Part shown: one piece after another, positions 17,636 to 40,861 of the stretch
How the letters are laid out: each line of letters starts with the position of its first letter
Position numbering within the stretch: position 1 is the first letter of the stretch
Source of the DNA: Bacteroidales bacterium
GTDB taxonomy: Bacteria; Bacteroidota; Bacteroidia; Bacteroidales; UBA932
NCBI GenBank assembly: GCA_017549145.1
Contig: JAFYVM010000043.1
Coordinates: forward strand, 1 to 41,039
Direction: 5' to 3'
DNA length: 41,039 nt
Made by a program: the position numbers and the translations under genes
Notes under the pieces: generated by a model
Told to the model about the DNA's origin: nothing
Seen by the model: only the letters and a program-made list of their open reading frames with translations
Databases searched by the model: none

Positions 17636-17659
17636 CATCAGCCCGGTCAGGGGCTGATG
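17636..17659 (-). other. CTGACC-loop hairpin downstream of a beta-helix gene
   Basis: In the minus-strand RNA a perfect 9-bp stem (CATCAGCCC / GGGCTGATG) encloses the hexaloop CTGACC, followed by GGTACCAA. It starts 18 nt after the stop of the beta-helix fimbrillin gene. No T-run follows, so it is not a normal intrinsic terminator. Confidence 0.8.
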
Positions 17660-17677
17660 GATAATATGTGATCTGAA

Positions 17678-20600
17678 TTACTTTACAGATTCAATGTTCT
17701 GCCTGTTGCCAGTTACGAGAGTGTTGATGTTAGCTGCAGTAAGAGCAACACCGTCAAGAGTACAGTTCTCGAATGACACCTTTGCGCGTGCGTCGATTGC
17801 ATGACCTGCCTCGAAAGTACAGTTCACGTAAGTTGTAGGAGCGTATGGACGGCTGAAGTTGTAGCCTGCACCTGCGCCGAATGTACAACCCTTGAAATAA
17901 CCAGTTCCGATAGTAGCTGCATATGATGTCCAGCCATAGAACTTAGAGTTGTAAGCCTCAAATCCCTGCTTTCCTGCCTGGTCACATGAAATTGTGTATG
18001 TAGGGCCCTTAACAATTACATTCTCAAGAACGATCTTCTCAGTACCGTTCTTGAAGAAGATACCACGGAAACCCTTAGCAACAGTTACGTTCTTGATAGT
18101 ACCGCCCTTGATAGCGATTGCGCTGTCCCAAGTAGAAGTAGCGCCTTCTACCTCGATTGTATGGCCGTTGCCATCGAATACGCCACCGTTGATGTTGATA
18201 CCTGTAGCACCATAACCGTTAGACTCTGCGTCAGTTGTAGTAATGTCAGAAGTAAGGATTACGTCACAACCGTTCTTAAGTGCCTCTCTGATCTCAGTGT
18301 CAGTGTCAGCAGCAGTAACATTAGCGCCCTCTACCTTGCATACACCGCCGTTTACAACAACCTTGTCAGCGTAAGCAGCTGCGTCTTCGTCTACCCATAC
18401 TGCGAACTCCTGGTCTGCGGCAACATCTGCGATGTTTACATTCTCAAGAGTGATGTTTGCACCAGCTACAGACTTAACAAGGATTGCAGCCTTCTTTGCA
18501 GTCTTGAAAGTAGAGTTCTTAACCTTGAGGTTTACAAGAGATGCAGGGTTTACATACTCTTCGTCGATCTTGATACCGCGGCCAGCAGACTCTACTGTCA
18601 AACCATCAATAACTACGTTCTGACCCTTAGCAGAGATCCACATTGCATAATAGTCATGAGTCTCTGTGATAGTTACATTCTTAAGAGATACATGCTTGGT
18701 AGCATTTGTAAACGCGATAGCCTTAGCGAATTTAACATTCTCAATTTTGTAGTTACAGTTCGCGAAAGTAAGGTCGTATGAATTCCAAGTACCTGTAGGC
18801 TGCTCGCTGGTCATTGTACCGTTCTTGATAGTGAAGAGAACGTTGTCGTTCTTTGCTCCGAGAGACGACCAGTATGTTGTACCGATTTTGAGGTTCTTGC
18901 CGTTAAGGTCGATAGTGATGGTCTGTGTATTCTCTGAACCAAGCTTGTACTCACCGCTTCCGCCGGTCATCTGACCGAGAGAAGAGATAGGGAGCACGAT
19001 GTCTGTTGTAAGAACAACTGAGATGTTCTCCTGGTCAGCTGTCAAAGCAGCAGCAAGCTCCTCAGCGTTTGTAATCCATCCCTCTGGAGTTGGGAATACC
19101 TTGTAAGTAGTAGCTGCGTTGAGAGTAAAGGCAGCTGTTGGAGCCACATAAGGGTCGCTGTCGTCAGCCTTAGTGAAGATGATCTGATAGTCGTCAGCTG
19201 TTGCTGGAGTAAGAGTAGTCTCGTCAACAGTAAGAACATAACCGTCAGTTGTCACTTTGCGAACGATAATTGGCTGCTTAGCAGCGATAGTTGTCTTCTC
19301 GATCTGAGTGTCAGCAACACTACCGTTAGCACGGATACCGTACTCATCTGCAGTGATGTTAGACTTGAGGATAGTTGCCTTGCCTGTGTTGCCGAGTGAA
19401 ATACCGTTTTTACAGTTGCTAACAGTAAGATTCTCTACTGCTACAGTGGCCTCACCGCATGATGTGAGCTGCATGAATGAATGAAGACCTGTTGCTGTAC
19501 AATTCTCAACTGCGAGTTTGCCATTGAGAGCCCAAAGCTTAACAGCAACTGCAGCTTTCTCGGCAGCGCCTGTTGCAGCGAAAGTACAGTTCTTAATTAT
19601 CATTCCATCAGGATAACGGAAGTTTGTTCCCTGACCCTCACCACAGTAGATGAATGCTTCGCCAGTCATTGTAGAAGCATCTGCAGTCTCGAAGTTGATG
19701 TTCTCGTATACAGTAGCAGCATTAGCATATGTAGTCTTACCGTTCATGAAGAATGAACCTGTAAGCTTTTTACCGTTACCGTCGATAGTGAGTGATCTGC
19801 CAGCCACCTCATTAACTGTGAAGTTACCAGCGATGTCCTTCTGGAAAACGATCTTTGTTACAGCGTCGTTTGCAAGCGCAGCCTTAAGCTGAGCAGCTGT
19901 TGATACGTTGATTGCACCTGGCTCAAGGTTTCCTACGTTCTCCTCGTCCCAGTCAACAACTGAAGGGTTGATGAGGATCTCGTCAAGACCGAAGATAAGG
20001 TTGTAGTTGTAGTGCTTGCCAGGTACCCATGGAGTGTTGTCTGTATCAAGAACGAGGTCAAGCTCTACAGTCATGCCAGGAGTGTCAGCAGTACCGTTGA
20101 TACCGTACTGGTCGAACTCAACTACTACCTTTGTTGTAGCCTGTGGGATAATAACTGTACCTGCAACAGTGTTCTCGATGTCAGTAAGAGTCTCAGTTAC
20201 CATCTGTGAGCCTTCGAATACTACGTAATCCTTAGCAACAGACCAGTTTGACCAAGGGTAGTTAGCTGCAGTATAATCCTTTGGCATACCATCTACCATA
20301 GTTGCCTCGAAATCAGCTGTAGTGTAGATGTCCTTGATAGTTACTTTCTTGATGTCGAATGCCTGAGCTGCGTCAGCGTCCTTAGCGATAACCTTAAGAG
20401 TAATCCAAGAAAGAGCGTGCTCGAACTCTACAGCAACCTTCTCAGCAGCAGTCATCACTGAGTAAGCTGGAGAAGTCTTAGCTACGAGGAAGTCCCAAGT
20501 CTCAGCAGTCTTGTATGGCTGAACATAAGGCTTGATAGAGTAAACGTCACCTGCCTGCTGGTGCTCTACCATAAGGTCAGCTGGGCTATAAGCTGCAAAA

Positions 20601-20941
20601 CGGAGGTAACCGTTCTTTGGCCAGTAGTACTTAACCTCACCACCCCAGTAGTTGCCTTTGTTTGTGAACTCAGCACCACCATTGTCATAGAGGTTCTTGA
20701 GGAAAAGCTCACCGTCAGTGAACATTCCGTTGTCAGTCTTGCTCCAATAAGCGAAAACGTCGAAGTTCTCCTCAGTTGGGTAGGTTGTTCCGTCCACGGC
20801 TCCCAAAACGTTAGCCTTGGTCTGCACAGCTGTTACGGGAGCGAGCTTGATCTCAGCCTCACCTGCCTCGTAAACAGCCTCAGTCTTAGCGCATGATGCT
20901 ATCGCAGCAATTGCTAAAAATGAAAAGAAAATCTTTTTCAT
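17678..20941 (-). CDS. fimbrillin fused to right-handed beta-helix domains (1087 aa)
   Basis: The lipoprotein signal is MKKIFFSFLAIAAIASC (Cys17) and the candidate cleavage site is T-K42|A43. Residues 1-340 are a full fimbrillin domain: YYWPKNGYLRFAAYSP, WDFLVAKTSPAYS, FEHALSWITLKV and WVPGKHYNYNLIFGLDEILI. Residues ~344-1087 are pectin-lyase-like beta-helix coils (VENCTATGLHSFM, IKNCTFAATG, LENVIVKGP). Three helix-cap-like starts of the form xELxxALxxxxxxIxLxxDI occur near 349, 645 and 895, so there are probably three beta-helix segments. The coils resemble those of the plus-strand gene at 37421. It looks like an unusually large pilin or fibre-displayed adhesin; glycan binding is inferred only. 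Confidence 0.85.
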   Translation of the reverse strand: MKKIFFSFLAIAAIASCAKTEAVYEAGEAEIKLAPVTAVQTKANVLGAVDGTTYPTEENFDVFAYWSKTDNGMFTDGELFLKNLYDNGGAEFTNKGNYWGGEVKYYWPKNGYLRFAAYSPADLMVEHQQAGDVYSIKPYVQPYKTAETWDFLVAKTSPAYSVMTAAEKVAVEFEHALSWITLKVIAKDADAAQAFDIKKVTIKDIYTTADFEATMVDGMPKDYTAANYPWSNWSVAKDYVVFEGSQMVTETLTDIENTVAGTVIIPQATTKVVVEFDQYGINGTADTPGMTVELDLVLDTDNTPWVPGKHYNYNLIFGLDEILINPSVVDWDEENVGNLEPGAINVSTAAQLKAALANDAVTKIVFQKDIAGNFTVNEVAGRSLTIDGNGKKLTGSFFMNGKTTYANAATVYENINFETADASTMTGEAFIYCGEGQGTNFRYPDGMIIKNCTFAATGAAEKAAVAVKLWALNGKLAVENCTATGLHSFMQLTSCGEATVAVENLTVSNCKNGISLGNTGKATILKSNITADEYGIRANGSVADTQIEKTTIAAKQPIIVRKVTTDGYVLTVDETTLTPATADDYQIIFTKADDSDPYVAPTAAFTLNAATTYKVFPTPEGWITNAEELAAALTADQENISVVLTTDIVLPISSLGQMTGGSGEYKLGSENTQTITIDLNGKNLKIGTTYWSSLGAKNDNVLFTIKNGTMTSEQPTGTWNSYDLTFANCNYKIENVKFAKAIAFTNATKHVSLKNVTITETHDYYAMWISAKGQNVVIDGLTVESAGRGIKIDEEYVNPASLVNLKVKNSTFKTAKKAAILVKSVAGANITLENVNIADVAADQEFAVWVDEDAAAYADKVVVNGGVCKVEGANVTAADTDTEIREALKNGCDVILTSDITTTDAESNGYGATGININGGVFDGNGHTIEVEGATSTWDSAIAIKGGTIKNVTVAKGFRGIFFKNGTEKIVLENVIVKGPTYTISCDQAGKQGFEAYNSKFYGWTSYAATIGTGYFKGCTFGAGAGYNFSRPYAPTTYVNCTFEAGHAIDARAKVSFENCTLDGVALTAANINTLVTGNRQNIESVK

Positions 20942-20978
20942 GTTGAATAGATTTTTGGTTAATAATTATTGTTTATAG

Positions 20979-22001
20979 TTACATTAATTCATCAATATTT
21001 GTCTCATCGAGGTCAACCTCAGTCCAATCTGTAACAGTCGGCTTGATAAGAATCTCTTTAAGACCGAAGATAAGCTTGTAGTTGTAGTGCTTGCCTGGCA
21101 CCCAAGGAGTTCCCTGAGGCTGGAGGTCAAGCTTGAGGTTGAGTGACGTAGTCGGGAGAGTTGCAGTACCATTGATTCCGTGCTGTACGAACTCGATTGT
21201 TACGTCTGTTGTGTTCTGAGGAATGATAACTGTTCCTCTTGCAGTATTCTCGATGTCAGTAAGAGTCTCAGTAACCATCTGTGAACCCTCAAACACCACG
21301 ATAGAAGCTGGATTGCTCTGGTTCTTCCACTCTTCGTACTGAATACCGTCTGTCATAGAAGCAGTAAAGTCTGCCTTTGTATTGACATTATTGATAGTTA
21401 TCTTCTTGATTTCAAATGCCTGAGCTGCATATGCGTCCTGAGCCTTCACCTTGAGAGTAATCCAAGAAAGAGCATGCTTGAAATCCAATGTCACCTTCTC
21501 TGCCTCTGTCATCATTGAGTATGACGGAGTAGTCGGAGCTACAAGAAAATCAAATGTCTTGTCAGTCTCAGATGGCTGCTCGTAGTTAGAGATTGAATAT
21601 ACATCATTCGCCTGCGAGTGTTGTACATTAAGATGCGAAGGGCTATATGCGGCAAAACGGAGTGAACCGACCTTTGGCCAGAAGTATGGCTTCACGCCTC
21701 CCCAGTACTCGCCTTTGTTTGTGAACTCCGCGCCGCTATTCTGCGCATCATCGCTCTGGATATAAAGCAAGCCATCGGTGAATGTGTCTCCGGCCTCAAC
21801 CTCCTTCCAGTATCCATATACATCGAAGTTCTCCGCAGTTGGGTATGCGTTACCATCCACAGCACCAAGGAAATTAGCCTTGGTCTGCATCTTTGTAATA
21901 GGAGCGAGTTTAATCTCAATTCCATCAGACTCCACTTCACTTGTCTTAGCGCATGATGCAATAGCAGCAACAGCAAGAAGTGTATAAAAAATCTTTTTCA
22001 T
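20979..22001 (-). CDS. fimbrillin-family lipoprotein (340 aa)
   Basis: Signal MKKIFYTLLAVAAIASC (Cys17), candidate cleavage site T-K41|A42, FWPKVGSLRFAAYSP, FDFLVAPTTPSYS, FKHALSWITLKVKA and WVPGKHYNYKLIFGLKEILI. It is a very close paralogue of the fimbrillin domain of the beta-helix fusion immediately downstream: long shared stretches such as VFEGSQMVTETLTDIENT occur in both. The protein stops about where the beta-helix begins in the fusion. This supports duplication followed by gain or loss of the beta-helix. Likely a stalk subunit. Confidence 0.87.
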   Translation of the reverse strand: MKKIFYTLLAVAAIASCAKTSEVESDGIEIKLAPITKMQTKANFLGAVDGNAYPTAENFDVYGYWKEVEAGDTFTDGLLYIQSDDAQNSGAEFTNKGEYWGGVKPYFWPKVGSLRFAAYSPSHLNVQHSQANDVYSISNYEQPSETDKTFDFLVAPTTPSYSMMTEAEKVTLDFKHALSWITLKVKAQDAYAAQAFEIKKITINNVNTKADFTASMTDGIQYEEWKNQSNPASIVVFEGSQMVTETLTDIENTARGTVIIPQNTTDVTIEFVQHGINGTATLPTTSLNLKLDLQPQGTPWVPGKHYNYKLIFGLKEILIKPTVTDWTEVDLDETNIDELM

Positions 22002-22051
22002 TAATAATAATGTTTGGTTAATAAAGTTACTCGTAATAGTGTTTTGGTACC

Positions 22052-22075
22052 CACCAGCCCGGTCAGGGGCTGATG
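22052..22075 (-). other. CTGACC-loop hairpin downstream of a beta-helix gene (second minus copy)
   Basis: In the minus-strand RNA the arms CATCAGCCC and GGGCTGGTG enclose CTGACC, followed by GGTACCAAA. One base differs from the 17636 copy; the change gives a U-G wobble in the sense RNA but a C-A mismatch on the other strand. It starts 10 nt after the stop of the beta-helix gene at 22086. Confidence 0.8.
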
Positions 22076-22085
22076 GATAATATAT

Positions 22086-24350
22086 TTAGAACTTAAGGTT
22101 GTCTACGTCACCGTTAAGGTAAGCAGCAACGTTGCCAGCAGTAAGAACTACGCCGTCAACTGTACAGTTCTTGAGAGTTACAGTTGCATCCTTAGCAAGA
22201 ACTGAAAGGTCGAAGCTGCAGCCCTTCTCGAATGAACATCCCTCGAATACTGAAGTCACGTAAGGCTTAACAGTTGCGTTCCACTCGTTGAGGACAGTAG
22301 GATCCTCGTTCTTGAAGAAGTCACCGATATAGAATGCAGTGTTGATGAACTTAGCTGACTTGAATGAAGAGTAGCTTGTCCAACCCTCGAGTGAGGAGTT
22401 CTCAACTGTGAGAGTGTAGTCGCAATTACCTGAAGTCTGAGTGTTGAGAGCGTAAGCTGTGTTAGAAACGTGAACGTTGTTAAGAACAACATTACCCTCG
22501 TTCTTATTGATTACGACACCGTAAAGAACCTTACCGTTAGTGTTTCTCTCGTTGTAACCGTTGATGAAGAGGTTAGTGATATAACCCTTAGATGTTGTCA
22601 CACCGAACATAACATCGCTCTTCTCCATGTTGAAGAAATAGCCGTTACCATCAAGGTCGTTTCCGTTAAGAACCATCTGAGCACCGTTGTAGTTGCCATT
22701 GAGGATAGCAGACTGGCTGAGAGCGCCCTTGTAAGGAGCAGGAGTTACGAAACCTCTGAGTGTGAGGTTGTTATAGTTGAATACGTCGCTGATCCAAACG
22801 TTAACTGTGTTAGCAGGAGTTGCAGTTGAGTTAGCCTCGAGGATCATGCGCTCGTGCTCGAAACCGTAGATAGTTACATAAGAGTCGCTGTAAGTACCCT
22901 CAAAGATATTGTTAGTAACCTTAACCTCAGCGTTGCTTGCATTCTTAACCTGCATGTGGAGAGCGCGAACTGCGTCGCTCTTGAATGAACAACCTGTTAC
23001 GCATGCCCAGTCAGCATTCTCAGCAACATACTGGATTGCCTCCCACTTGTAACCCTCGAATGAGCAGTTGTCGAAAGTGATGTTCTTGTTACCAGTGTTA
23101 ACATAAACAGAAGACTCGTTACCCTCTGTAGCGTTAGCGAAATCTACGTCGTAGAAAGCAACAGTCTCACCTGTTACGTGAACTGGCTTGCCAGTGAAGC
23201 CACCACCTACGATTGTAGTGTTGTAGTCAATTGTAAGTGCAGATGAAAGAGCGATAACGTCAGTAAGCTCGATCTCCTCTACATTAGCTGCGAGAGCCTC
23301 AAGAAGCTGCTCCTCTGTAGCTGCAGTGTTGATGTAACCATCATCGTTGTCATCCTTCTCGTCAACGATCACGTCCTCCCAGTCAGCAACTGAAGGGTTG
23401 ATCACGATCTCCTCGAGGTCGAATACGATAGTATAGATATAGTGCTTGCCTGGGTGCCACTTGTTGTCCTCCTCGTTGTTGAGCTCGAGTGGAATAGTAA
23501 GAGTCTGCTCCTTAAGCTCAGGAGTTGCAGTATCACCGTTGTCCTCCTTCATCTCGTTCTGAGTGAAGTTGATGGTAAGAGTTGTAGGAACCTGTGGGAT
23601 AACCACTGTACCGTTCTCAACGTTCTCAGCTACGCGAGCGATAGTTGTGAGGTTGATGTCACCGTCAAGTACTACGTTGTAAGCAGCTGGAGTATTAGCG
23701 TTCTCCCACTCCTTGTACTGTACGCCGTCGTTCATGTCAGCTGTAAGGTCAGCGTTAGTGTAAACGTCGTTGATGATAAGGTCGTGGATAGTGAAAGCCT
23801 TAGCAGCGTCAGCGTTAGCAGCCTTAACCTTAATAGTGATCCATGCAAGAGTGTGCTCGAACACTACAGCAACGTTCTCAGCAGCTGTGTGAGCGTTATA
23901 TGGAACAGTGATAGGAGAAAGCATGAAGTCAATAGTCTCAGCTGTGTTGCTTGACTGTGTATAGTTCACTGTAAACACGTCGTTCTCAGGATCGTGAGCT
24001 ACGCCAGGAACTACAGCAGGGCTATAGCAAGAGAAACGGAGGTTACCGTTCTTTGGCCAATAGTAAGTGTCGTTCTTACCTGCCCAGTAGATACCGCTGT
24101 TAGCGAATACCTTGTTCTCGAGGTAAACCTTGTTAGGATTAGCTGCGTCGCCATCCCAGTAAGCCCATACGCCGAATTCCTCAGCCTTAGGATACTTTAC
24201 ACCGTCAATAGCATTGTAGACAGTCTTAGTCACATATGAAGTCACAGGAGCCATCTTGATCTCGTTCTGACCCTCTGTGTATGCTTCTTCTGTCTTAGCG
24301 CAAGATGCAAGTGCTGCAACTGCGAGAAGTGCGAATATAATCTTTTTCAT
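22086..24350 (-). CDS. fimbrillin fused to right-handed beta-helix (754 aa)
   Basis: The lipoprotein signal is MKKIIFALLAVAALASC (Cys17) and the candidate cleavage site is T-K42|T43. The fimbrillin domain covers ~1-330 (YYWPKNGNLRFSCYSP, IDFMLSPITVPY, FEHTLAWITIKVKA, WHPGKHYIYTIVFDLEEIVI). A linker rich in Asp (VDEKDDNDDGY) leads to a beta-helix from ~345 (EEQLLEALAANVEEIELTDV cap, then FDNCSFEGYKWEAIQYV, LNNVHVSNTAYAL). The last ~60 residues (FEGCSFEKG to LKNCTVDGVVLTAGNV) match the C-terminal end of the larger fusion at 17678, so the terminal cap is a conserved module. Predicted surface appendage subunit. Confidence 0.85.
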   Translation of the reverse strand: MKKIIFALLAVAALASCAKTEEAYTEGQNEIKMAPVTSYVTKTVYNAIDGVKYPKAEEFGVWAYWDGDAANPNKVYLENKVFANSGIYWAGKNDTYYWPKNGNLRFSCYSPAVVPGVAHDPENDVFTVNYTQSSNTAETIDFMLSPITVPYNAHTAAENVAVVFEHTLAWITIKVKAANADAAKAFTIHDLIINDVYTNADLTADMNDGVQYKEWENANTPAAYNVVLDGDINLTTIARVAENVENGTVVIPQVPTTLTINFTQNEMKEDNGDTATPELKEQTLTIPLELNNEEDNKWHPGKHYIYTIVFDLEEIVINPSVADWEDVIVDEKDDNDDGYINTAATEEQLLEALAANVEEIELTDVIALSSALTIDYNTTIVGGGFTGKPVHVTGETVAFYDVDFANATEGNESSVYVNTGNKNITFDNCSFEGYKWEAIQYVAENADWACVTGCSFKSDAVRALHMQVKNASNAEVKVTNNIFEGTYSDSYVTIYGFEHERMILEANSTATPANTVNVWISDVFNYNNLTLRGFVTPAPYKGALSQSAILNGNYNGAQMVLNGNDLDGNGYFFNMEKSDVMFGVTTSKGYITNLFINGYNERNTNGKVLYGVVINKNEGNVVLNNVHVSNTAYALNTQTSGNCDYTLTVENSSLEGWTSYSSFKSAKFINTAFYIGDFFKNEDPTVLNEWNATVKPYVTSVFEGCSFEKGCSFDLSVLAKDATVTLKNCTVDGVVLTAGNVAAYLNGDVDNLKF

Positions 24351-24384
24351 TGTTTATTTGGTTTTTTGTTTGTCTTAGATTGGA

Positions 24385-25473: not shown

Positions 25474-25487
25474 AATGTTGTATCTTG

Positions 25488-26531
25488 TTAGTTATTTGGT
25501 ACAGGAATGTTAACGACTGTCTGATCTGCCCATCCTTCAACCTTTGGTGCAACGAGGATTTCTGTTGCTGTAATTGTGATTGTATAAATGTAGTGCTTAC
25601 CTGATTCCCAAACATTTGCGTCACCTTCACCTACTGCAAGAGGAAGATTCTTAACGGTTTCAGTTATAAGATCTGCACCTGCTTGAGCATAGTATGAATA
25701 AGTTACATCAATTGTTGTAGGAGTTTGAGGTATAACAACAAAGTTATTTGGTACGTTTTCAAATACTACCGCATCACCTGATTTAGGGAATGTTGCTCCA
25801 GGAGTGTTAGAGTAGATAATTTCATTCCACTTAGACTCTGTAACATAGTCATCCCATAATGCTTTTGTGTCGTCACATACTGCTGTTCCCTTATGATAGA
25901 GATTATTGATGGTAAGATCATGCAGTTTGTAATTCACTCCTGTTGTAGCGTCACCAATAACTTTTACTGTAATCCATGAGCATGCGTGCTTCAAAGTTAC
26001 ATTAACAGCAGTGCTTCTTCTTGAATATGACGCGCCATCCCAAGGGAACCACATCAAGTCATTTTTGCCTGGCTCAGTCATAGTATTATCCTGAACATAA
26101 CCTGCAATTGTAAGTTCATTAGCTACGAAATCCATTGTCGGAGTTAGCGCCGCTGAATTACATGCCTCAGAGTATCCAGCAAAAATCAAAGACTTTACAT
26201 TTGGCCAATACTGAGCAGGTGTACCATCATAGATGTTTGAATCACCTCTCCATTCAAACTGAGCCTTCTTGAAATATACGTCTGGAAAGCTTCCATCAAC
26301 GAGCGCACCGGCAGCATTCTGCTCCTGAGCATTTGCATAGATGAACAGGTCCTGAGTTGTTGGGAAAGTTTCATCGTGACCATCTGTTGTTGGGAGTCCA
26401 GCGACACTCTTTGTTACGTTATGTGCAACAGGAGCAAATCCGATCTCTACCTGGTCGGTATACTCAACTTCAGACTTAGAGCAAGCTGCGATAGCAGCGA
26501 TTGCTACGAGTGAAAAGAAAATCTTTTTCAT
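25488..26531 (-). CDS. fimbrillin-family lipoprotein (347 aa)
   Basis: Signal MKKIFFSLVAIAAIAAC (Cys17), candidate cleavage site T-K41|S42, QYWPNVKSLIFAGYS, LKHACSWITVKVIG and WESGKHYIYTITITATEILV, then PKVEGWADQTVVNIP. It lies 14 bp before the next fimbrillin and 71 bp after the previous one, a gap that holds a CCGGGG hairpin. Same family and likely same role as its neighbours, but diverged enough to form distinct pilin positions. Confidence 0.87.
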   Translation of the reverse strand: MKKIFFSLVAIAAIAACSKSEVEYTDQVEIGFAPVAHNVTKSVAGLPTTDGHDETFPTTQDLFIYANAQEQNAAGALVDGSFPDVYFKKAQFEWRGDSNIYDGTPAQYWPNVKSLIFAGYSEACNSAALTPTMDFVANELTIAGYVQDNTMTEPGKNDLMWFPWDGASYSRRSTAVNVTLKHACSWITVKVIGDATTGVNYKLHDLTINNLYHKGTAVCDDTKALWDDYVTESKWNEIIYSNTPGATFPKSGDAVVFENVPNNFVVIPQTPTTIDVTYSYYAQAGADLITETVKNLPLAVGEGDANVWESGKHYIYTITITATEILVAPKVEGWADQTVVNIPVPNN

Positions 26532-26562
26532 ATTGTTATCGTTTTATATTGTTTCGTTTGGG

Positions 26563-26583
26563 ATCCCCGGTCAAGCCGGGGAT
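26563..26583 (-). other. intergenic hairpin between fimbrillin genes
   Basis: The 8-bp arms ATCCCCGG and CCGGGGAT enclose, in minus-strand sense, CTTGA; the sense RNA therefore reads CTTGACC across the top, close to the CTGACC loop of the other hairpins, and is followed by CCCAAAC. It begins 19 nt after the stop of the 26603 fimbrillin. The sequence also resembles a widely dispersed GGGGATGAC-type repeat. Confidence 0.7.
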
Positions 26584-26602
26584 GACTTGCTATATCTTAA
26601 GA

Positions 26603-27697
26603 TTACTCTACTGTTACTGACTGATTAACAGAATCCCATTCACCATATGAAGGAGCTACGAGAATCTCGTTTGCCTTAAATACGAGGGTGTATGTGTAGT
26701 GATTTCCTGAAAGCCATGTGTTAATATTGTTTGCATCTGGAATATCCTGACCGGCCTCATTCTGATGTCCATTCAATGTCAAATTCACAATTGTCTTTCC
26801 ATCCTTCATTACTCCTGAAACAGGGTATTGATATGTAATCTCGAGCTGTACTGGTGTCTGTGGGATAACTACAACACCATAATCAACAGATTCATATTCT
26901 TCAGCTGTTTTAGTCAAAGTGTATGGTTCATCTTCAGTAAGATCCATATCTGCTGGGGTATTAGAAACCCATGTCGCACTTGCTTTCAGTGTCTCTTCAT
27001 CATCAACTATAACTGTATTGAAAACGCAAGTTCCGGTTCCTACAGTTTTAACGCCTTTAAGCGTTGCACCTGTGATAACCCATGTGCCAGCAGTTGACTC
27101 ATCTCCCTTAACCTTAATTGTAACCCAAGTCAATGCATGCGACATGGTTACAGCTACAGGAGCACCATCTGTTCTGTTGTTATATGAACGATTAGTTCTT
27201 CCAAACCAGCAGAGGTCGAATGTTTCAGCAAGGAGATTTGACTGCGTATAGTTAGTAAATGTCATTGTATTCTCTTCATTGACGTCAGTAGTTTCTGTAT
27301 TATCAAGGAAAGAATATGAGGCTGAAAAGGTTGCCTCTTCCGGCTTGTTGTAACCTGCAAATACCAAGGCGCCGTTTGTTGGCCAAGGATATGATGTCTC
27401 ACCACCCCAATTGGCTGTTGAAGTACGGTTAACAAACAGAGCATTTGCAAGATACGAATCGGTATAATTAGCATATGTCGCTTTAGTTTCTTCTACCGAA
27501 CCGTTAACGCCATTCCAGAATGCCCAGATACCAAGGTCATTTGAGGCGTCAAGAACTCCACTTTCGTTTGCTGCCTTAGTGACATTCTTCACTGCAGGAG
27601 CAAAGCCGATTTCCGCTGAGGCCTCATAAGCCACCTCAGACTTAGTACAAGCTGCAAGAGCAGCGAGTGCTACGATTGAAAAGAAAATCTTTTTCAT
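26603..27697 (-). CDS. fimbrillin-family lipoprotein (364 aa), first pilin of the minus operon
   Basis: Signal MKKIFFSIVALAALAAC (Cys17), candidate cleavage site T-K41|A42, YPWPTNGALVFAGYN, FDLCWFGRTNRSYN, MSHALTWVTIKVKG and WLSGNHYTYTLVFKANEILV, ending APSYGEWDSVNQSV. As the first fimbrillin after the DUF3575/DUF5119 pair, it occupies the place of the major pilin in related loci. A 196-bp gap with a large stem-loop separates it from the upstream gene, which may allow different expression of anchor and pilin. Confidence 0.87.
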   Translation of the reverse strand: MKKIFFSIVALAALAACTKSEVAYEASAEIGFAPAVKNVTKAANESGVLDASNDLGIWAFWNGVNGSVEETKATYANYTDSYLANALFVNRTSTANWGGETSYPWPTNGALVFAGYNKPEEATFSASYSFLDNTETTDVNEENTMTFTNYTQSNLLAETFDLCWFGRTNRSYNNRTDGAPVAVTMSHALTWVTIKVKGDESTAGTWVITGATLKGVKTVGTGTCVFNTVIVDDEETLKASATWVSNTPADMDLTEDEPYTLTKTAEEYESVDYGVVVIPQTPVQLEITYQYPVSGVMKDGKTIVNLTLNGHQNEAGQDIPDANNINTWLSGNHYTYTLVFKANEILVAPSYGEWDSVNQSVTVE

Positions 27698-27753
27698 AAT
27701 TGTTTGTTTTTAATTGTTAATATTTTTTCGTTTTGTTTTTCTTGTCTTGGCTC

Positions 27754-27818
27754 ATTAGAACCTTCGCCCCGTTCCGGATGATAATCGCTATAGATGAATT
27801 GAAGCGAAGGGTTCTAAT
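27754..27818 (-). other. long inverted repeat between anchor and first pilin gene
   Basis: Arms ATTAGAACCTTCGC (27754-27767) and GCGAAGGGTTCTAAT (27804-27818) pair with a single bulge and a 36-nt loop. No T-run follows in the minus direction within a few bases. No promoter consensus was found in 27698-27893. It may be an RNA processing or attenuation site, or a dispersed repeat. Confidence 0.65.
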
Positions 27819-27893
27819 AATGTGGTGTAAGTTCGTAATTTGTGGTAATGAATCGGTTAATGTTGTGTGCTTTAAGTTAGGATTGAACTTACG

Positions 27894-30260: not shown

Positions 30261-30279
30261 CCAAAAAACCGATTCTCTA

Positions 30280-32899: not shown

Positions 32900-32941
32900 T
32901 TGTCGAATGTCATTCGAACTTGTTGAGAAATCTTATATACC

Positions 32942-32961
32942 TATATATATACGCGCGCATG
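32942..32961 (+). other. 20-nt alternating pyrimidine-purine run ending in a start codon
   Basis: The run of TA steps followed by CGCGCGCATG is perfectly alternating and includes the ATG of the next gene. Such sequence can adopt Z-form or be easily melted. Confidence 0.6.
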
Positions 32962-33783: not shown

Positions 33784-33800
33784 CACAAAATAAAACAAGT

Positions 33801-36800
33801 ATGAAAAAGATTATTTACAGTGCTCTCGCAGTGGCGCTCGCTTTCTTCTCTGCTTCATGTCAGAAGGAGAATCTTGAGCCTGCAGTAAGCGGAAACACCG
33901 TGACCTACACTGTGGAGGTTCCGGGTGCACTCAAGACAAAGGCTCTTGGTGATGAGGTGACAGCTGTTGATAAGGTGTACTATCAGGTATACCGTGCAAC
34001 AGAGGTTGATGACCTTACCAAAGCTTTCGTTTATGATGGTGAGGCTGATGTTAATGCAGGTACTGCATCATTCGAGCTCGAGTTCGTTAAGAATCAGAAC
34101 TTCGTAGTTCTTTTCTGGGCTCAGGATGAAGATCTTCAGATGTTTAACATCGATGACCTTCGTAAGGTTCAGCTTACAAATCCTGGCGCTTCAAACAATG
34201 TTAACGCTCAGGTTTTCGCTGGTAAGGATACAGTTTCTGACTGTGTTTCGGCAAATGGTGGAAAGGTAGAACTTACTCGTCCTATCTCTCAGCTTAACAT
34301 CTTCACAACTAAGGAGAGCCTTATGTTTGGAACCAAGAGCATTACACTCATAGAGTCAACAGTTACAGTTAAGGGTCTTTACACTACTTACAACGTAGCT
34401 GAGGGCGAGGCTGTTACCGAGAATGTTGAGGCTGCAAACTTCACTTACGGTTCATATGCAGTTCCTGCTACAGAGGATGCAGATACATACGCTTATGTAG
34501 CAATGAACTATGTAGGTTTCGCTCCAAAGCAGGCTGCAACAGTTGAGGTTGACTTTACTATCAACACTTCTGAGGGTAACGTAAGTCACAATGTATCAAG
34601 CGTTCCAGTTAAGCCTAACTACAGAACTAACATCGTAGGTAATCTCCTTACTGAGGCAACTGACTACAACGTTACTCTTGACGCTGAGTGGGCTGACGAG
34701 GAGTATACAGAGGTAGTTGTAAGCACAGCTTCAGACCTTCAGACTACAATCAACGAGGCTCCAGATGGTGAGGCAACAGAAATCACACTTTCTGGTGACA
34801 TCGATTTCGGTGACCTTCTTGGAACTCTTACTAAGGCAGCTTCAGATCCAGCTTCTCTTGTCATCCCTGCAACTAAGACAATTGTTCTCAATCTTAACGG
34901 TTGCACTCTCAGCCAGACAGCTGAGCAGACTGGCGCTCATTCAATGATTGAAAACAATGGTCATCTGACAATCGTTGATACAAAAGGAAACGGTAAGATT
35001 TCATACTCGGATACAGGAAACGGTGGAAACTATGTTTCAAACACAATCATTAACAGTGGTACATTGGTAATTGAGAGTGGTCTTATTGAGAACAATAGCT
35101 CAGCAGAAGTAGCGGCAAATGGTTACCCACATCCGCTTGACAACAATGGCGAGTTGATTATTAACGGTGGTACATTGACCAATAACGCAAATTATGCATC
35201 AATGCGTATCTGGTGTACTACTGATGATAATACTTCTGTAACAATCAATGGAGGAACATTCAATGGTTCAATTGATTTCCAGACTCCTAGCGCTTCTGCA
35301 AACAAGGGTTCCCTTACTATCAATGGCGGTACTTTCAATGCTGATACATATACTAAATGTGCCGTACGTCTTCTTGGCTTCGGTGCTGATGTGGATGAAA
35401 TGTTAGGTGACATCAAAGGCGGTACTTTCAATGGTGAAATCGCTCTTCGCAACTGGTCTGGTTCTGATTTGAACTCTCAGGTATTCTATATCACAGGTGG
35501 ACAGTTCTCTGTAGATCCTACAGCATTTGTGGTAGATGGTTATCCAGTAATCGCTCCTGAGGCAGAGGGTGGCTATTACACTATCGGTCAGTTCGTTCCT
35601 GTAGCAATGGTCGGTGATCAGGAGTACGGTTCACTTAAGGCAGCAGTAGCTGCAGTTCAGGATGGCGAGACTATTAAACTCGTTAAAAATATTGAGCAGG
35701 CAGATGGTGTTACTATCACTGACAAGAATCTCACTATTGATCTCAACGATAAGACATACACTGTTACAGAAGGTGCAACTACCAATAACCGTAACTTCAA
35801 GATCAATGGCTCTTCTATTGTAACTATCAAGAATGGTACAATGGTCGCTGCTGGTGAGTTAACATCTGGAGCTTATGGTACAGTTCGTACTGAAGGTAAA
35901 GCAATCGTAACTTTAGAGGATGTCAAGTTATATAGCTATCGCGGTTATGGACTCAATGTGAAAGCTAATACCGGAACAACTGTCAATATCAATCACTCTG
36001 AAATCTATTCTCAGTATAGCGGTGGAGTAGAGGCTGCTGGCGGTGAAATCAATTTGACTGATGTGAAAATCGAACAGAGAGGAATATATTCCGGCGCAGC
36101 TTGGTGCTCTGTTGCAATCGGTGTTAATGGTGGAGGAAAGGTGACAGTAAATTCAGGAGAATATTCTGCTAGTGCAATCAGCACAGATTCTAACTTTTCA
36201 CAGGGAACATGGGTTGCCTATGTAATGAGTTCAGGTGGCACGCTCGAAATCAATGGTGGTACATTCAATGGCACAGTAGCAGAGACTGCAGCTGCAGCAA
36301 ATGCTTGTGGACTCATCTGTGCAGACAGAGCAGCTGTAGTAAATATTAAAGGAGGTACATTTAACTCAAATGGTGCTATCCTTGATATGCGTAATAATGT
36401 AGGTTCACAGCCAAATCCAGTAGCAACCCTTGCTGGTGGTACATTCTCATCAGACCCTCGAGTGTCAGGACTCTACAGTTCAGATCTCATTAAGGTTGCA
36501 GAAGGCTACAAGGTAGTAGAAAATAATGGAGTATGGAATGTAATTGTTGATCCTGCAGCAAAGATCGGTGAAACAGAGTATGCTTCTCTCCAGGAGGCGT
36601 TCAATGTAGGTGGAAACATTATTCTTCTTCGTGATGTTGCTACAGCGGAGACTGTTGTTCTTGCTGAAGGAATGACTGTTGTACTTGATCTAAATGGTAA
36701 GACATTGTCAGCTGCTGACAAGAATACACTCCGAAATGATGGTGGAAACCTTACTGTAAAGAATGGTACAGTTACTCGTACTGGTGATAGTGTTGGATAT

Positions 36801-37355
36801 TCAGTAAACAATGCATCTGGAGAAATAGCAGTTGAGAACGCAACAATAGAGCGTGGTCTCTACACTAGCGGAAGCAAGATGACAGCTACTAATGCAAATA
36901 TTAGCCATGAGCAGTCTTCAAGACATGCTATTTATTCATGGAATTGTGAGGTTACCATCAACAGTGGTACGTTCCATAATGATAATGCCGGAAACGCAAC
37001 ATTGATGGCATCTGGTTCATCAGTTGTTACTATCAATGGCGGTACATTCAGTATTGCTGATGGACGTTCTTCACTAGGTTGGACATCCTCAATGATTGAT
37101 CAGAATAGTACTGCTCAGGTATTGGTTAAGGGTGGCCTTTTCAATGGTGGATTCCGTATCAATTCTGCCGATACAAAGCTTACCATTGAAGGTGGTGAAT
37201 TCAATACCAATAACGGTAGCGCCTTTACAGACTATTCAGGAACAAAGGTTGTCAAGGGTGGTAAATTCACTGATGCAGGAGCTCAGAATTGGGCTAAGAA
37301 GTATATTGCTGATGGCTATGAAATGAATACAGACGGTGAAGTAGTAGCTAAATAA
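33801..37355 (+). CDS. DUF6562-like pilin domain fused to beta-helix repeats (1184 aa)
   Basis: Signal MKKIIYSALAVALAFFSASC (Cys20), candidate cleavage site T-K47|A48. The pilin-like domain (to about 305) has NTVTYTVEVPGALKTKALGD, FVVLFWAQDEDLQ, LTRPISQLNIFTT, YVAMNYVGFAPKQ and VPVKPNYRTNIVGNLLTEAT. From ~315 it is beta-helix: cap-like ASDLQTTINEAPDG, then about a dozen INGGTFNG-type coils (INGGTLTNN, IKGGTFNGE, INSGTFHND, IEGGEFNTN), with two more VGxxEYxSLxxA entry motifs near 610 and 920. No catalytic motif of a polysaccharide lyase is evident. A surface fibre or adhesin role is likely by context. It is followed by a CTGACC hairpin. Confidence 0.85.
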   Translation: MKKIIYSALAVALAFFSASCQKENLEPAVSGNTVTYTVEVPGALKTKALGDEVTAVDKVYYQVYRATEVDDLTKAFVYDGEADVNAGTASFELEFVKNQNFVVLFWAQDEDLQMFNIDDLRKVQLTNPGASNNVNAQVFAGKDTVSDCVSANGGKVELTRPISQLNIFTTKESLMFGTKSITLIESTVTVKGLYTTYNVAEGEAVTENVEAANFTYGSYAVPATEDADTYAYVAMNYVGFAPKQAATVEVDFTINTSEGNVSHNVSSVPVKPNYRTNIVGNLLTEATDYNVTLDAEWADEEYTEVVVSTASDLQTTINEAPDGEATEITLSGDIDFGDLLGTLTKAASDPASLVIPATKTIVLNLNGCTLSQTAEQTGAHSMIENNGHLTIVDTKGNGKISYSDTGNGGNYVSNTIINSGTLVIESGLIENNSSAEVAANGYPHPLDNNGELIINGGTLTNNANYASMRIWCTTDDNTSVTINGGTFNGSIDFQTPSASANKGSLTINGGTFNADTYTKCAVRLLGFGADVDEMLGDIKGGTFNGEIALRNWSGSDLNSQVFYITGGQFSVDPTAFVVDGYPVIAPEAEGGYYTIGQFVPVAMVGDQEYGSLKAAVAAVQDGETIKLVKNIEQADGVTITDKNLTIDLNDKTYTVTEGATTNNRNFKINGSSIVTIKNGTMVAAGELTSGAYGTVRTEGKAIVTLEDVKLYSYRGYGLNVKANTGTTVNINHSEIYSQYSGGVEAAGGEINLTDVKIEQRGIYSGAAWCSVAIGVNGGGKVTVNSGEYSASAISTDSNFSQGTWVAYVMSSGGTLEINGGTFNGTVAETAAAANACGLICADRAAVVNIKGGTFNSNGAILDMRNNVGSQPNPVATLAGGTFSSDPRVSGLYSSDLIKVAEGYKVVENNGVWNVIVDPAAKIGETEYASLQEAFNVGGNIILLRDVATAETVVLAEGMTVVLDLNGKTLSAADKNTLRNDGGNLTVKNGTVTRTGDSVGYSVNNASGEIAVENATIERGLYTSGSKMTATNANISHEQSSRHAIYSWNCEVTINSGTFHNDNAGNATLMASGSSVVTINGGTFSIADGRSSLGWTSSMIDQNSTAQVLVKGGLFNGGFRINSADTKLTIEGGEFNTNNGSAFTDYSGTKVVKGGKFTDAGAQNWAKKYIADGYEMNTDGEVVAK

Positions 37356-37364
37356 TTTCAATCT

Positions 37365-37386
37365 CACGGCACCTGACCGTGCCGTG
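37365..37386 (+). other. CTGACC-loop hairpin downstream of a beta-helix gene (plus operon)
   Basis: The arms CACGGCAC (37365-37372) and GTGCCGTG (37379-37386) enclose CTGACC; the stem extends outward by a U-G and a C-G pair. It starts 9 nt after the stop of the 33801 gene and is followed by GGGTTCCAAA, with no U-run. Confidence 0.82.
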
Positions 37387-37420
37387 GGGTTCCAAATAAT
37401 AACTAATTACACTAAACATT

Positions 37421-40400
37421 ATGAAAAAAATTCTTTACAGTGCTGCCGCAATGGCGCTTGCATTCCTTGCTGCTTCATGTCAGAAGGAAGTGCTCGAGCC
37501 AGTTGTAAGCGCAAACACCGTAACTTACACAGTTCAGGTTGCGGATGCAGTCGCTACCAAGGCTCTTGGTGACGATGTAGCTGCTGTTAATGAGCTCGTG
37601 TACGAGGTTTATCGTACAGCTGCTGAGGAGACAACAGAATTCACATCTGCTGACAACCTTCTCTATCACAAGACAGCAACTATCACAAACGGTACAGCTA
37701 CAATCGAGCTTGAGTTCGTAAACGATCAGAACTTTACAGTTCTTTTCTGGGCTCAGACTGCAGTAGCAGAGGGTGAGACTCCAATTTACAATGTTGAGGA
37801 TCTTACAAACGTAACAATCACTTCTCCTGATGCTGCCAACAATGCAAACGCACAGGCATTCGTAGGTCGTGACTTCGTAAGAGACTGCGTTTCAGACGCT
37901 AATGGTAAGGTAACTCTCGTTCGTCCAGTTTCACAGCTCAACATCGCTACAACTCCTGCTAGCCTTAACATCGAGGGTCAGACAACAGTTGCTCTTGAGG
38001 GTTCTTCAGTAAAGGTTACAGGTCTTGCAACCTCATACAACATTGCAACTCTCAGCGCTTTCGGCGCTACTGCAACTGAGTATACTTACACTGAAACAGC
38101 TGTTCCTGCTGATGTTCTTACTGTCAACGGCAAGGACTACACTTATGTTGCAATGAACTATGTAGGTTTCGCACCAGAGATGGGTACTTCAGATGTAACT
38201 GTATCATACGTGATCAACACATCAGAGGGTAACATCGACAACGAGATCCTCAACGTTCCAGTTAAGCCTAACTACCGCACAAACATCATCGGTAACCTCA
38301 TCACTTCTAAAACTGATTATACTATCACTCTTGAGAAGACTTGGGGCGAGGGTGATTACTATGGTCCTGAGTTCGTTAAGACTCCTGCTTATGATGAGGC
38401 TACAAAGACTTGGACCATCACATGCCGTGATGAACTTCTTTATGTTGCTCAGCAGGTGAACACAGGTGCAAACTCATTTGTAGGACAGACTGTAAAGGTT
38501 GTTAATGACATTGACCTTAAGAACATTCCTTGGACTCCTATTGGACATTCAACTTCTGTTACTTTCAGAGGTATGTTTGAGGGTGCAGCGGTTACAAAGG
38601 CTGCAACTAAATATCCTACAATCAGCAACCTTAAGATCGAGAACGGCAATTGTTCTGGTTTCTTCGGTCTTATGTGCAACGGAGGTAAGGTTAGAAACAT
38701 CAACTTTAACAATGTAACTATCAGCGGTGAGCGTCAGCTTGGTGTTGTTGTCGGTCAGGTATATGGAAATCTTGAGCAGCCAACAATTGAGAATGTGACA
38801 GTAGAGAACGCTGTTATTACAGCAGTTCCTGCACTTGATGGTACAGTGTACGATAACGGTGACAAGGTCGGCGGTATTGCAGGTCTTATCGGGCAGCAGG
38901 CTTATATCAAGGATTGTACGGTAAAGAATTCTACATTCACTGGATATCGTGACCTTGGAGGTATACTTGGATGTTCTCAGAACGGATATTCATGCAATCT
39001 AACAGGTAATCATACAGAAAATATCGACTTCGTCGTAACTTCTCAGTTTGTCCCTTATAGCGGTAATACTCCACACGGCGCAACTGGCGCTATCCGTGGC
39101 GGTACACGTTCTAATGCAGCTGATGTAATTGAAGGAAATACTAGTTCAGAAGTTGCTGAAGTAGTTCTTGTAAATGATCAGGTTAGTCTTCAGAATGCAA
39201 TCAATGCAGCAGTTGGCGAGACAAATATTAAGTTCGTTTCTGATATCACAGGAAATGTAAGTGTAACTGTTATTCAGAAGCCTGGCGTAAAGATTAATAT
39301 TAACGGTGACAACAAGAAGTATAATGGTTTCATCAAGGTACACAGCAACTCTAATTACTATGCTGATGCTGCTTTGACTATCAAGAATGTAAATTTCGAG
39401 ACTTCTGTTGCCAGCACTAATTTCATTGAAGCCCTTGAGAATGGATCTGAGAGATATTCAACCAACATTACTGTTGAGGAGTGTACATTTACCGCAACTG
39501 GAGAGGGTGAAAAGACTTCAGTAGGTGTCCAGATCAAGGCATCTAAGAATGCGAAGGTATTGAACTGTACTGCAACAGGTGTTCACTCGCTTCTCCAGGC
39601 TCAGAGCTGCGACGAGACTGTCGTTGTTAACGGATGTACAGTAAATGGTAAGAACGGTGTCGCTTTCAAGCAGGTTAAGGCAGCCACTGTTGAGGGCACT
39701 ACAATCACAGCTCTTGAGTACGGTATCCGTTTCGACGGTAACACTGACAACTACGGTATTGTAGTTAAGGATAACAACGTAACAGCAGTTCAGCCTCTCA
39801 TCGTTCGCAAGATGACAGGCAAGAACAATACTATAGCTCTTGAGGGTACAAACACACTTACTACTGAGGCCGAATATCAGATCGTCATTACCAATGATAG
39901 CGATGATCAGCCTTATGTTAAGCCAACAGGTTCTTACACTTTGACAGGTGCTGATAGCTTCAAACTTTTCCCTGCGATACCAGTAGCAAAGATTGGCAAC
40001 ACCGAGTATACTAGCATTGACGAGGCTATCGCTAATTGGACAAACGGTACAACTCTTACTCTTATTGCGAACGTAACACTTAGCAATGTTATTGAACTCA
40101 AATCTACTGAGTACCATGTTCTTGATCTCGGTACATATACAATGACAGCCGCAAGTAAAAAGGATGCCATTCAGATTACTGCTGAGGGTCGCACTTCGGC
40201 AAGTTATGCATTGGATATCAAGGCTGATGCAACTAATCCAGGTGGTATTATTGCGACAGGTAAAGCAGTTGTGAAGACTACCGGTAAATCAGGTGTAAAG
40301 GATCGTCCTATTATCAGATTCTACAACGGTGTATTCACTGGAACCAATGTAATTAGCCACAGTGGAAGTAATGGCACCAATTGCCCTCAATTCCAATTCC

Positions 40401-40819
40401 ATGGTGGAGTTTTTAATGGTACAATTACAGCTAACCGCGCATTGATTCAGTTTTATGGTGGAACATTCAATGGTTCATTGATGATGTCTGTGGATTCTTC
40501 TGCATACGCATTAATCTCTGGCGGTAGATTTAAGCAATTGAATAATAACTATGGATCTGCTCTGAATTCTGATAAGTTTACCATCGGTTCTGCAAAGGGT
40601 GTATTTGACCGCGGTGTTTATGTGGATGATGAAGGATATTTCGTTGTCGGTGGTCCAGTAATCACTGACTTCGGTGATATGTTCGCAGCTAAGGCAACAA
40701 ATGCAAGCAAAGCCGGTTCATATTTGCCATACAGCAGTGCCGCAGCAAACGGATTGTATTATACAAATGCTGCAGCAGCTATCGCTAAGCATGGTGAGGC
40801 TAATGTTGTACTGAAATAA
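37421..40819 (+). CDS. DUF6562-like pilin domain fused to beta-helix repeats (1132 aa)
   Basis: Signal MKKILYSAAAMALAFLAASC (Cys20), candidate cleavage site T-K47|A48. The pilin-like domain (to ~310) matches its upstream neighbour (FTVLFWAQ, LVRPVSQLNIATT, YVAMNYVGFAPEM, VPVKPNYRTNIIGNL). Residues ~330-560 are GLUG-like (GNCSGFFGLM, VGGIAGLIGQQAYIKDCTV). Residues ~600-860 (ECTFTATGEGEKTS, LNCTATGVHSLLQAQSC, VQPLIVRKM) strongly resemble the beta-helix of the minus-strand gene at 17678. The last ~260 residues start VAKIGNTEYTSIDEAIANW and have FHGGVFNGTI and FYGGTFNGSL coils. It is a mosaic of at least three beta-helix types on one pilin-like head. Confidence 0.86.
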   Translation: MKKILYSAAAMALAFLAASCQKEVLEPVVSANTVTYTVQVADAVATKALGDDVAAVNELVYEVYRTAAEETTEFTSADNLLYHKTATITNGTATIELEFVNDQNFTVLFWAQTAVAEGETPIYNVEDLTNVTITSPDAANNANAQAFVGRDFVRDCVSDANGKVTLVRPVSQLNIATTPASLNIEGQTTVALEGSSVKVTGLATSYNIATLSAFGATATEYTYTETAVPADVLTVNGKDYTYVAMNYVGFAPEMGTSDVTVSYVINTSEGNIDNEILNVPVKPNYRTNIIGNLITSKTDYTITLEKTWGEGDYYGPEFVKTPAYDEATKTWTITCRDELLYVAQQVNTGANSFVGQTVKVVNDIDLKNIPWTPIGHSTSVTFRGMFEGAAVTKAATKYPTISNLKIENGNCSGFFGLMCNGGKVRNINFNNVTISGERQLGVVVGQVYGNLEQPTIENVTVENAVITAVPALDGTVYDNGDKVGGIAGLIGQQAYIKDCTVKNSTFTGYRDLGGILGCSQNGYSCNLTGNHTENIDFVVTSQFVPYSGNTPHGATGAIRGGTRSNAADVIEGNTSSEVAEVVLVNDQVSLQNAINAAVGETNIKFVSDITGNVSVTVIQKPGVKININGDNKKYNGFIKVHSNSNYYADAALTIKNVNFETSVASTNFIEALENGSERYSTNITVEECTFTATGEGEKTSVGVQIKASKNAKVLNCTATGVHSLLQAQSCDETVVVNGCTVNGKNGVAFKQVKAATVEGTTITALEYGIRFDGNTDNYGIVVKDNNVTAVQPLIVRKMTGKNNTIALEGTNTLTTEAEYQIVITNDSDDQPYVKPTGSYTLTGADSFKLFPAIPVAKIGNTEYTSIDEAIANWTNGTTLTLIANVTLSNVIELKSTEYHVLDLGTYTMTAASKKDAIQITAEGRTSASYALDIKADATNPGGIIATGKAVVKTTGKSGVKDRPIIRFYNGVFTGTNVISHSGSNGTNCPQFQFHGGVFNGTITANRALIQFYGGTFNGSLMMSVDSSAYALISGGRFKQLNNNYGSALNSDKFTIGSAKGVFDRGVYVDDEGYFVVGGPVITDFGDMFAAKATNASKAGSYLPYSSAAANGLYYTNAAAAIAKHGEANVVLK

Positions 40820-40839
40820 GCGGCATGATAATCTAACCT

Positions 40840-40861
40840 CACGGCACCTGACCGTGCCGTG
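40840..40861 (+). other. CTGACC-loop hairpin downstream of a beta-helix gene (plus operon, second copy)
   Basis: The arms and loop are identical to 37365-37386, starting 20 nt after the stop of the 37421 gene and followed by GGGTTCAAA. It separates this gene from the next paralogue. Confidence 0.82.

Follow-up and report, generated by a model that had tools for sequence, protein, structure and literature searches.

What does a short hairpin do that recurs, with one loop and changing stems, between the genes of two divergent operons? The question is raised by 41,039 nucleotides (nt) of DNA from a Bacteroidales bacterium (assembly GCA_017549145.1, contig JAFYVM010000043.1, positions 1 to 41,039; hereafter the window), whose genus is, judging from sequence, probably Candidatus Cryptobacteroides. 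An initial annotation, made from the letters alone, had pointed to four such hairpins, each after a gene that it called beta-helix. We show that these are copies of a 39-nt element that is constrained as sense RNA and sits between same-strand genes. We read it as a cis-acting element of polycistronic messenger RNA (mRNA), an intercistronic punctuation mark that may process or stabilise the upstream message; to this explanation we give about an even chance.

Consensus structure and covariation

On the sense strand the element has the layout TTN-(12 bp)-CUGACC-(12 bp)-N'-CCAA, where N and N' are mostly paired, so that a regular helix of 12-13 base pairs (bp) without extrahelical bases carries a loop of 6 nt; the mean minimum free energy (MFE) is -22.5 kcal/mol. 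After deduplication, 169 of 180 copies measure exactly 39 nt, and the 150 distinct sequences among these 169 underlie the consensus and pair counts. The loop reads CTGACC in 130 of them and otherwise TTGACC (8), CCGACC (4), GTGAAA (4), GTGATA (3) or CTGATC (1), its central GA being kept in all 150; G18, A19 and C35 are the invariant positions. The CCA tail stands at its expected position in 128 sequences. Positions N3 and N34 form a Watson-Crick pair in 109 (T-A 39, A-T 39, C-G 31, G-C never), and the loop is closed by C-G in 94 and by G-C in 46. The initial annotation had noted a constant loop on a changing stem and had named a lack of loop conservation as grounds for abandoning its idea; the loop counts bear out the former and contradict the latter. 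It had also described a GGGTxCC flank. The sequence is there, but it is the 3' arm of the stem, pairing with 5' TATCC, AATCT or AACCT, plus the CC of the CCA tail, and not a separate flank. In the GTGAAA and GTGATA variants (L077 at 2620, L080 at 6449 and 1665, L111 at 2603 and 6468), loop positions 1 and 6 shift together, from C..C to G..A.

An initial pattern, CTGACC-N4-12-GGGTNCCAA, run on 61 genomes, matched in 13, some of these being chance matches in other families, and its reversed control matched once overall. Sixteen copies from the genus align without gaps; 95.7% of the cells of this alignment are paired, and it holds 53 double changes against 18.8 in shuffles. A covariance model, R1, was built from these copies. 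A set of 120 matches at E ≤ 1 came from 81 sources, three of the matches having E > 0.1. Double changes occur at all 13 pairs of these 120 copies, in 404 cells; shuffles give 110.7 and sliding no more than 105. Since the alignment of the 120 matches was fitted to the structure, we scanned the species-genome collection with an independent pattern in which ATCC, the loop and GGGTNCCAA were fixed and pairing was not demanded. Its 58 matches in Bacteroidales or Bacteroidia-type records pair at a mean of 7.43 of 8 inner positions, whereas shuffled partners for the same matches pair at 4.46 (maximum 4.97). Among the 16 matches in other records, 14 pair at four or fewer positions and two, L203 and L221, at six. 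The contrast between the two groups makes the RNA element well supported as real. As far as this pattern goes, it is a feature almost exclusively of Bacteroidales, a confinement that L203 and L221 leave incomplete. L203 (486-524, minus strand) comes from a Candidatus Obscuribacterales record and scores E 3.2e-4 with a further model, R2; it is either a chance match or a distant relative.

The pairs also reveal which strand is under constraint. Across pairs 4-15 there are 246 G-U and 46 A-C combinations, and the four lowest pairs, summed from the counts, hold 166 G-U and no A-C. The lower stem has mostly G on its 3' side, with C or U opposite. Both features are as expected of sense RNA.

Position in operons

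Stop and start distances were taken from all 120 contexts, in which 114 copies have a same-strand open reading frame (ORF) of at least 100 codons ending no more than 60 nt upstream. The median distance from stop to stem is 10 nt, and 89 of the 114 copies lie less than 15 nt after the stop. Same-strand ORFs flank 111 of the 120 copies on both sides. An ORF follows in 116, its start at a median of 20 nt (range 0-131) from the element; a regular expression finds a lipobox in 97 of these ORFs, and of the 19 without one, roughly ten seem lipoprotein-like by eye.

A stem less than 15 nt after a stop codon is within reach of a terminating ribosome, and repetitive extragenic palindromes (REPs) near stop codons affect translation in E. 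coli. The close spacing of most copies would thus suit a hairpin that, with a binding protein at the ribosome's leading edge, governs termination, reinitiation or coupling. The varied distance to the next start is a poor match to a fixed coupling geometry, however, and the CCA tail is left unexplained, so that we consider such a translational role distinctly improbable.

Flank and array sequence counts rest on the 112 copies of exactly 39 nt among the 120. Only one of them has at least four T within 8 nt 3' of the stem, which agrees with the initial annotation that the hairpin is not a normal terminator. The sequence is T-rich 5' of the element and A-rich 3' of it. At four loci (L083 4040+, L091 4073+, L069 and L089), judged by eye, a common GTTCTTTGACATACTG-like stretch lies 3' of the element, and in the first three an unrelated ORF comes next; this stretch resembles a promoter or the beginning of a mobile unit. 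A factor-dependent attenuator, a pause site or partial terminator that lowers downstream transcription without a U-run, could draw on that stretch, on the strength of the hairpins and on a position like that of polarity-setting terminators. Yet a U-run is all but absent, and the flanking composition is opposite to that of an intrinsic terminator, whichever strand is read; we find attenuation improbable.

Junctions between genes within the same loci served as a control. The downstream gene encodes a lipoprotein at 64 of 72 junctions with the element and at 114 of 155 without it, in loci that were chosen for carrying the element and with crude ORF calls. The lipoprotein linkage is therefore mostly a property of these operons. 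A long spacer is what sets the junctions with the element apart, at a median of 69.5 nt compared with 13 nt without it. When 21 element-free junctions with a spacer of 45-200 nt and a lipoprotein downstream were folded, 15 did so only weakly (MFE above -10); one holds a REP of the window that is described below, and one (L136) has a 13-bp hairpin with a different loop.

The kinds of gene beside the element are varied. Pfam families were assigned in subsets hand-picked, with near-duplicates omitted, from the 114 upstream and 116 downstream proteins (the first 70 upstream below 1000 amino acids (aa) and the first 80 downstream of 100-1000 aa), so that long proteins, including the window's of 1087, 1184 and 1132 aa, are under-counted. 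Mfa_like_1 (13) and TIG (7) lead among 49 upstream proteins, other families occurring once or twice each; among 58 downstream proteins we found Mfa_like_1 (20), BACON (9), BACON_2 (6), GH26 (5), GH13 (4), GH18 (4) and smaller groups. Fimbrillins, BACON/TIG lipoproteins and glycoside hydrolases are thus the usual classes. The copies at L081 and L113 precede similar ORFs, that of L081 being a class II aldolase, and a carbohydrate kinase is among the upstream proteins, which argues that the element is not limited to genes for exported proteins. The proposal that the hairpin travels with a beta-helix cassette fails on these counts, as the neighbours are mostly fimbrillin-like proteins and glycan-use lipoproteins. 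Specificity for beta-helix genes was rejected, given the varied Pfam families on both sides. The initial annotation would have dropped its idea if the hairpins were equally common after unrelated genes, and this is partly what we see: many kinds of gene precede the element, beta-helix genes not in particular.

Copies in the window

All four hairpins were found at the positions first reported, in sense orientation and with the loop CTGACC in each. Counting wobbles, each has 13 bp, and copy 4 has a CAA instead of a CCA tail. Copy 1 (17627-17665, minus strand; loop at 17645-17650, tail CCAA) scores 51.4 bits with a covariance model, R3, whose training set includes two of the four window copies. 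It lies between the stop of a gene at 17678-20941 (minus), which encodes a 1087-aa adhesin-like protein with Pectate_lyase_5 (beta-helix; PF20585, E 1.3e-14), and the start of a fimbrillin-like Mfa_like_1 gene at 16740-17618 (minus). Copy 2 (22043-22081, minus) differs in its stem from copy 1 by one G-U wobble, which the initial annotation had described correctly; it separates a gene at 22086-24350 (minus), for a 754-aa lipoprotein with 40% identity over 470 aa to the 1087-aa protein, from one at 20979-22001 (minus) for a fimbrillin-like Mfa_like_1 lipoprotein. Copy 3 (37358-37396, plus strand) has the other stem type, CACGGCAC, and stands between a gene at 33801-37355 (plus; 1184 aa, N-terminal DUF6562) and one at 37421-40819 (plus; 1132 aa, no Pfam family). 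Copy 4 (40833-40871, plus) follows the latter gene and precedes a lipoprotein-type gene that begins at 40911 and runs off the window. The 1132-aa and 1184-aa proteins are paralogues, with 52% identity over 330 aa. It had been claimed that the hairpin follows every complete beta-helix gene; all four genes so named do carry it, while Pfam recognises a beta-helix-like family in the 1087-aa protein alone.

An unfiltered R3 scan of the window gives the four copies E-values of 6e-12 to 5e-10 and everything else E ≥ 0.38. The model-free pattern CTGACC-N{4,12}-GGGTNCCAA has four matches in the whole 2.35-Mb source genome, three of them inside the window, and its reversed control has none. Together, these results exclude a chance origin of the four copies. 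In the same window, two 16-bp palindromes (6877-6912 and 8396-8433), both with AAAAGTAGCGAGCA, adjoin two PDDEXK_2 transposase-like genes (5500-6438 and 6933-7931).

Occurrence in genomes and viral contigs

With R1 at E ≤ 0.1, 71 of 121 genomes of the genus were matched, and the source genome, with 10 copies, has the most. Outside the genus, single copies occur in four other Bacteroidales families (genomes G293, G328, G397 and G161, the last at E 0.0011), in every case just past a stop, with the next gene having a signal-like start by eye. Within the genera of G293 and G328, two of seven and two of six genomes have matches. A sample of 393 genomes from the order yielded the source genome and four others; three of these four are in the training set of the model used, having been found earlier by a model trained without them. 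No match beyond the source genome appeared in a sample of 296 genomes from the phylum. Searches over 40 genomes used strict filters that left some 17-55 candidates to be scored per genome, and the counts are therefore lower bounds: the R3 runs on the order and phylum samples recovered 8 of the 10 source-genome copies.

The element also occurs in at least three viral contigs, where L245, L246 and L247 hold well-paired copies. Among 14 viral stretches, L244-L247 pair at 12 of 13 positions, L262 and L265 at 13, L273 at 11 and the other seven at 5-8; L262 and L265 lack gene context and were not counted as viral copies, and L244 is doubtful owing to its tRNA-like surroundings. In L245 the element lies between ORFs of 267 and 82 aa, and past the stop of the 82-aa ORF there is a second, weak copy (17.1 bits, loop TTTGACC); in L247 the element, near the end of the contig, comes after the end of an ORF whose tail is acidic. 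In L246 it comes after a gene for a gp2.5-like single-stranded DNA-binding protein (SSB; phrog_112). Three related phages fill the slot behind their SSB gene differently: L266 has the element there, L267 a tRNA-like sequence and L268 a tRNA-Tyr. The L267 sequence was recognised by eye alone, not being called by ARAGORN or Rfam, and the SSBs of L267 and L268 are 87 and 79% identical to that of L246. The relatives of the SSB that a search returned from named phages all fell short of 60% identity.

This slot suggests a minimal transfer RNA (tRNA) mimic, whose 12-bp helix and N-CCA would imitate the acceptor/T-arm minihelix and be cut by RNase P or another tRNA enzyme. The strict length and the well-kept CCA fit such a mimic, and RNase P RNA is reported to cleave non-tRNA RNA in dependence on a 3' RCCA (PMC12710915). 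On the other hand, the slot is a single case, the 6-nt loop is no T-loop, which has 7 nt, and the closing pair varies where tRNA has a fixed G-C. In most copies the base preceding the helix pairs with the one preceding CCA, and a leader paired with RCCA is reported to hinder binding by RNase P (PMC9433436). ARAGORN called no intergenic tRNA in the scanned host loci with the element; a single tRNA-Ser lies near an end of L090. We judge tRNA mimicry improbable.

Divergence of the stems and mobile palindromes

The stems change slowly. An identical 39-mer occurs in six species genomes (L098-L101, L103 and L105), from which L084, similar in layout though not proven orthologous, differs by one paired change. 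Stem identity decreases slowly with the identity of the neighbouring proteins, being 0.73-0.74 for different-locus pairs at 30-40% protein identity and 0.54 over all between-locus pairs. Because the stems change slowly and often in pairs, the element does not look mainly mobile, and this weakens a mobile-site reading, the sequences at L070 and L065 notwithstanding.

The initial annotation had offered a folded single-strand recombination site as one interpretation. In its broader form the element would be a DNA-level site, attC-like or a REP moved by a REP-associated tyrosine transposase (RAYT), that shuffles surface-protein modules; in a milder form, it would be a REP-derived palindrome without RNA function. 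Of 51 stem pairs within arrays, 37% show a likeness of 90% or more, a level that 2% of pairs between loci attain, and identity drops at the element edges. Once protein identity is matched, however, the excess is clear only below 30% (0.77 and 0.81 in 11 and 13 within-array pairs, compared with 0.61 and 0.64 elsewhere) and disappears at 30-40%; the likeness of stems beside diverged array neighbours may reflect local conversion. L065 shows the reverse, with upstream paralogues 62-79% identical and unlike stems, a pattern that matches neither reading simply. At L070 (G032 C12, 6937-7790 and 10975-13171), small repeated units of GNAT-like ORFs and short partner ORFs, resembling toxin-antitoxin modules by eye, separate near-identical copies of the element and look as though they had been inserted together with these copies or in between, which would suit a DNA-level site. 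Of 41 genomes from the genus, 31 have RAYT-like Y1_Tnp genes (PF01797, frames mostly of about 300 aa), for instance on G000 C9, C15 and C71. No element was found at the RAYT-like loci examined (best E 0.74; 14 sources, 12 distinct places). Palindromes of other types lie near two of the three source-genome RAYT-like copies (L231 and L232). Given the slow divergence, the 39-mer shared by six species and the lack of A-C in the lowest pairs, we regard a DNA-level site as very unlikely.

CGTC-tagged REPs, small palindromes with a CCA tail that are reported in Bacteroidetes (PMC3733652), are among the described systems closest to the element. They are described there as having a CGTC tag, a stem of 8-9 bp, a loop of 4-5 nt and mostly head-to-head dimers, whereas the element lacks the tag and carries its 6-nt loop on locus-specific stems of 12-13 bp. 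CGTC or NGTC directly precedes the stem in none of the 112 copies, and CGTC, TGTC or CCTC occurs anywhere in the 12-nt stretch around the start in five. The five CGTC REPs in the loci examined have the loop C(C/T)TGA, which contains TGA as the element's loop does, and four of the five follow a same-strand stop. Since place and orientation do not clearly separate the two, a distant common origin is possible. One such palindrome, GTCATCCCCGGCTTGACCGGGGATCCCAAA, lies in the window at 26557-26586 (minus), between the stop of a gene at 26603-27697 and the start of one at 25488-26531; its place and orientation are of the same kind as the element's. The hairpin at 26563-26583 had been put forward as a fifth family member; it is rejected as such and belongs to these REPs, with 11.4 bits and E 0.95 under R3, the loop CTTGA and an 8-bp stem. 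Similar REPs lie right after an element in L078 and before two elements in L070. The GTAG REP/RAYT system (PMC3733652) shares with the element its intergenic palindromes, and the genus has RAYT-like genes, but GTAG directly precedes the stem in 0 of 112 copies.

Relation to described elements and proposed role

Rfam 15 gave no match in the window at gathering thresholds, none at E ≤ 1 in eight loci and, in seven viral loci, two tRNAs only, neither overlapping the element. The element class is not described in the literature covered, where the kind to which it belongs, intercistronic mRNA stem-loops, is known; preprints, most subscription papers and the supplements of motif screens (e.g., PMC8040213) lay outside that scope, and we do not claim that it is absent from print. 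A close likeness is to the cip-cel operon of Ruminiclostridium cellulolyticum, which encodes a surface complex and has GC-rich stem-loops between its cistrons; these are reported to process and stabilise the message and to set stoichiometry (PMC10311766). The element, too, is intercistronic, GC-rich and stable, as in selective RNA processing and stabilisation. The differences are that the cip-cel case concerns one operon with two stem-loop types, whereas here one loop and tail consensus, on stems that covary, extends over a genus and into some viral contigs. Bacterial RNase P substrates with RCCA (PMC12710915, PMC9433436) share with the element a helix followed by N-CCA, and differ in that it has no T-loop and its base before the helix is mostly paired. 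RNase P could be its reader, with the CCA and the phage slot in favour, and the loop and the paired pre-helix base against. RbpB, a global RNA binder of Bacteroides, and the FopS RNAs act at the start of messages from polysaccharide utilisation loci (PMC11697453); a link to the element is not evident.

Intercistronic punctuation remains our preferred explanation, because an element so placed, stable and without the features of a terminator, most likely serves to separate or protect the upstream message. The alternative that the initial annotation had offered, a protein-bound RNA element or mRNA processing signal, gains support here, with the following as a proposed mechanism. A loop and a foot that are both fixed, at a fixed distance and with a mostly free stem between them, suggest a reader touching both helix ends. 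A putative host factor would recognise the loop YUGACC together with the helix base and CCAA tail, 12-13 bp apart, and would tolerate nearly any paired sequence in the remaining stem. The hairpin could block exonucleases, direct endonucleolytic cleavage at the junction, or both, and the upstream segment would become a separately stable mRNA; neighbouring genes of fimbrial and glycan-use operons might then be expressed at different levels, with an effect on stoichiometry.

Several points weigh against this explanation. Searching with covariance models itself generates part of the G-U excess, and the upper stem has 80 G-U against 46 A-C, with one pair holding 34 of the 80. At nine of the 120 copies, no same-strand ORF was called on at least one side; four of the nine lie in L070 next to the inserted units, and contig ends truncate two. 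The enrichment of lipoprotein genes downstream is modest. For stabilisation by itself, a fixed loop would be superfluous. No cognate protein was found, and cleavage and stabilisation are so far deductions from the letters.

A bolder version of the punctuation hypothesis, which we consider unlikely, is a genus-wide code. The element would amount to a pared-down tRNA, its fixed loop and CCA tail held apart by a 12-bp helix of nearly free sequence; one factor would read loop and tail and would cut or cap the messages of surface-protein operons, while viruses of the same community would use the mark after an SSB gene where their relatives have a real tRNA.

The element is a sequence-recognisable, strongly covarying intercistronic RNA that sits at gene junctions in the fimbrial and glycan-use operons of uncultured bacteria from gut and rumen. 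With it, differential expression within Bacteroidales operons becomes testable at defined positions, and it points toward an RNA-binding or RNA-cutting factor still to be found.

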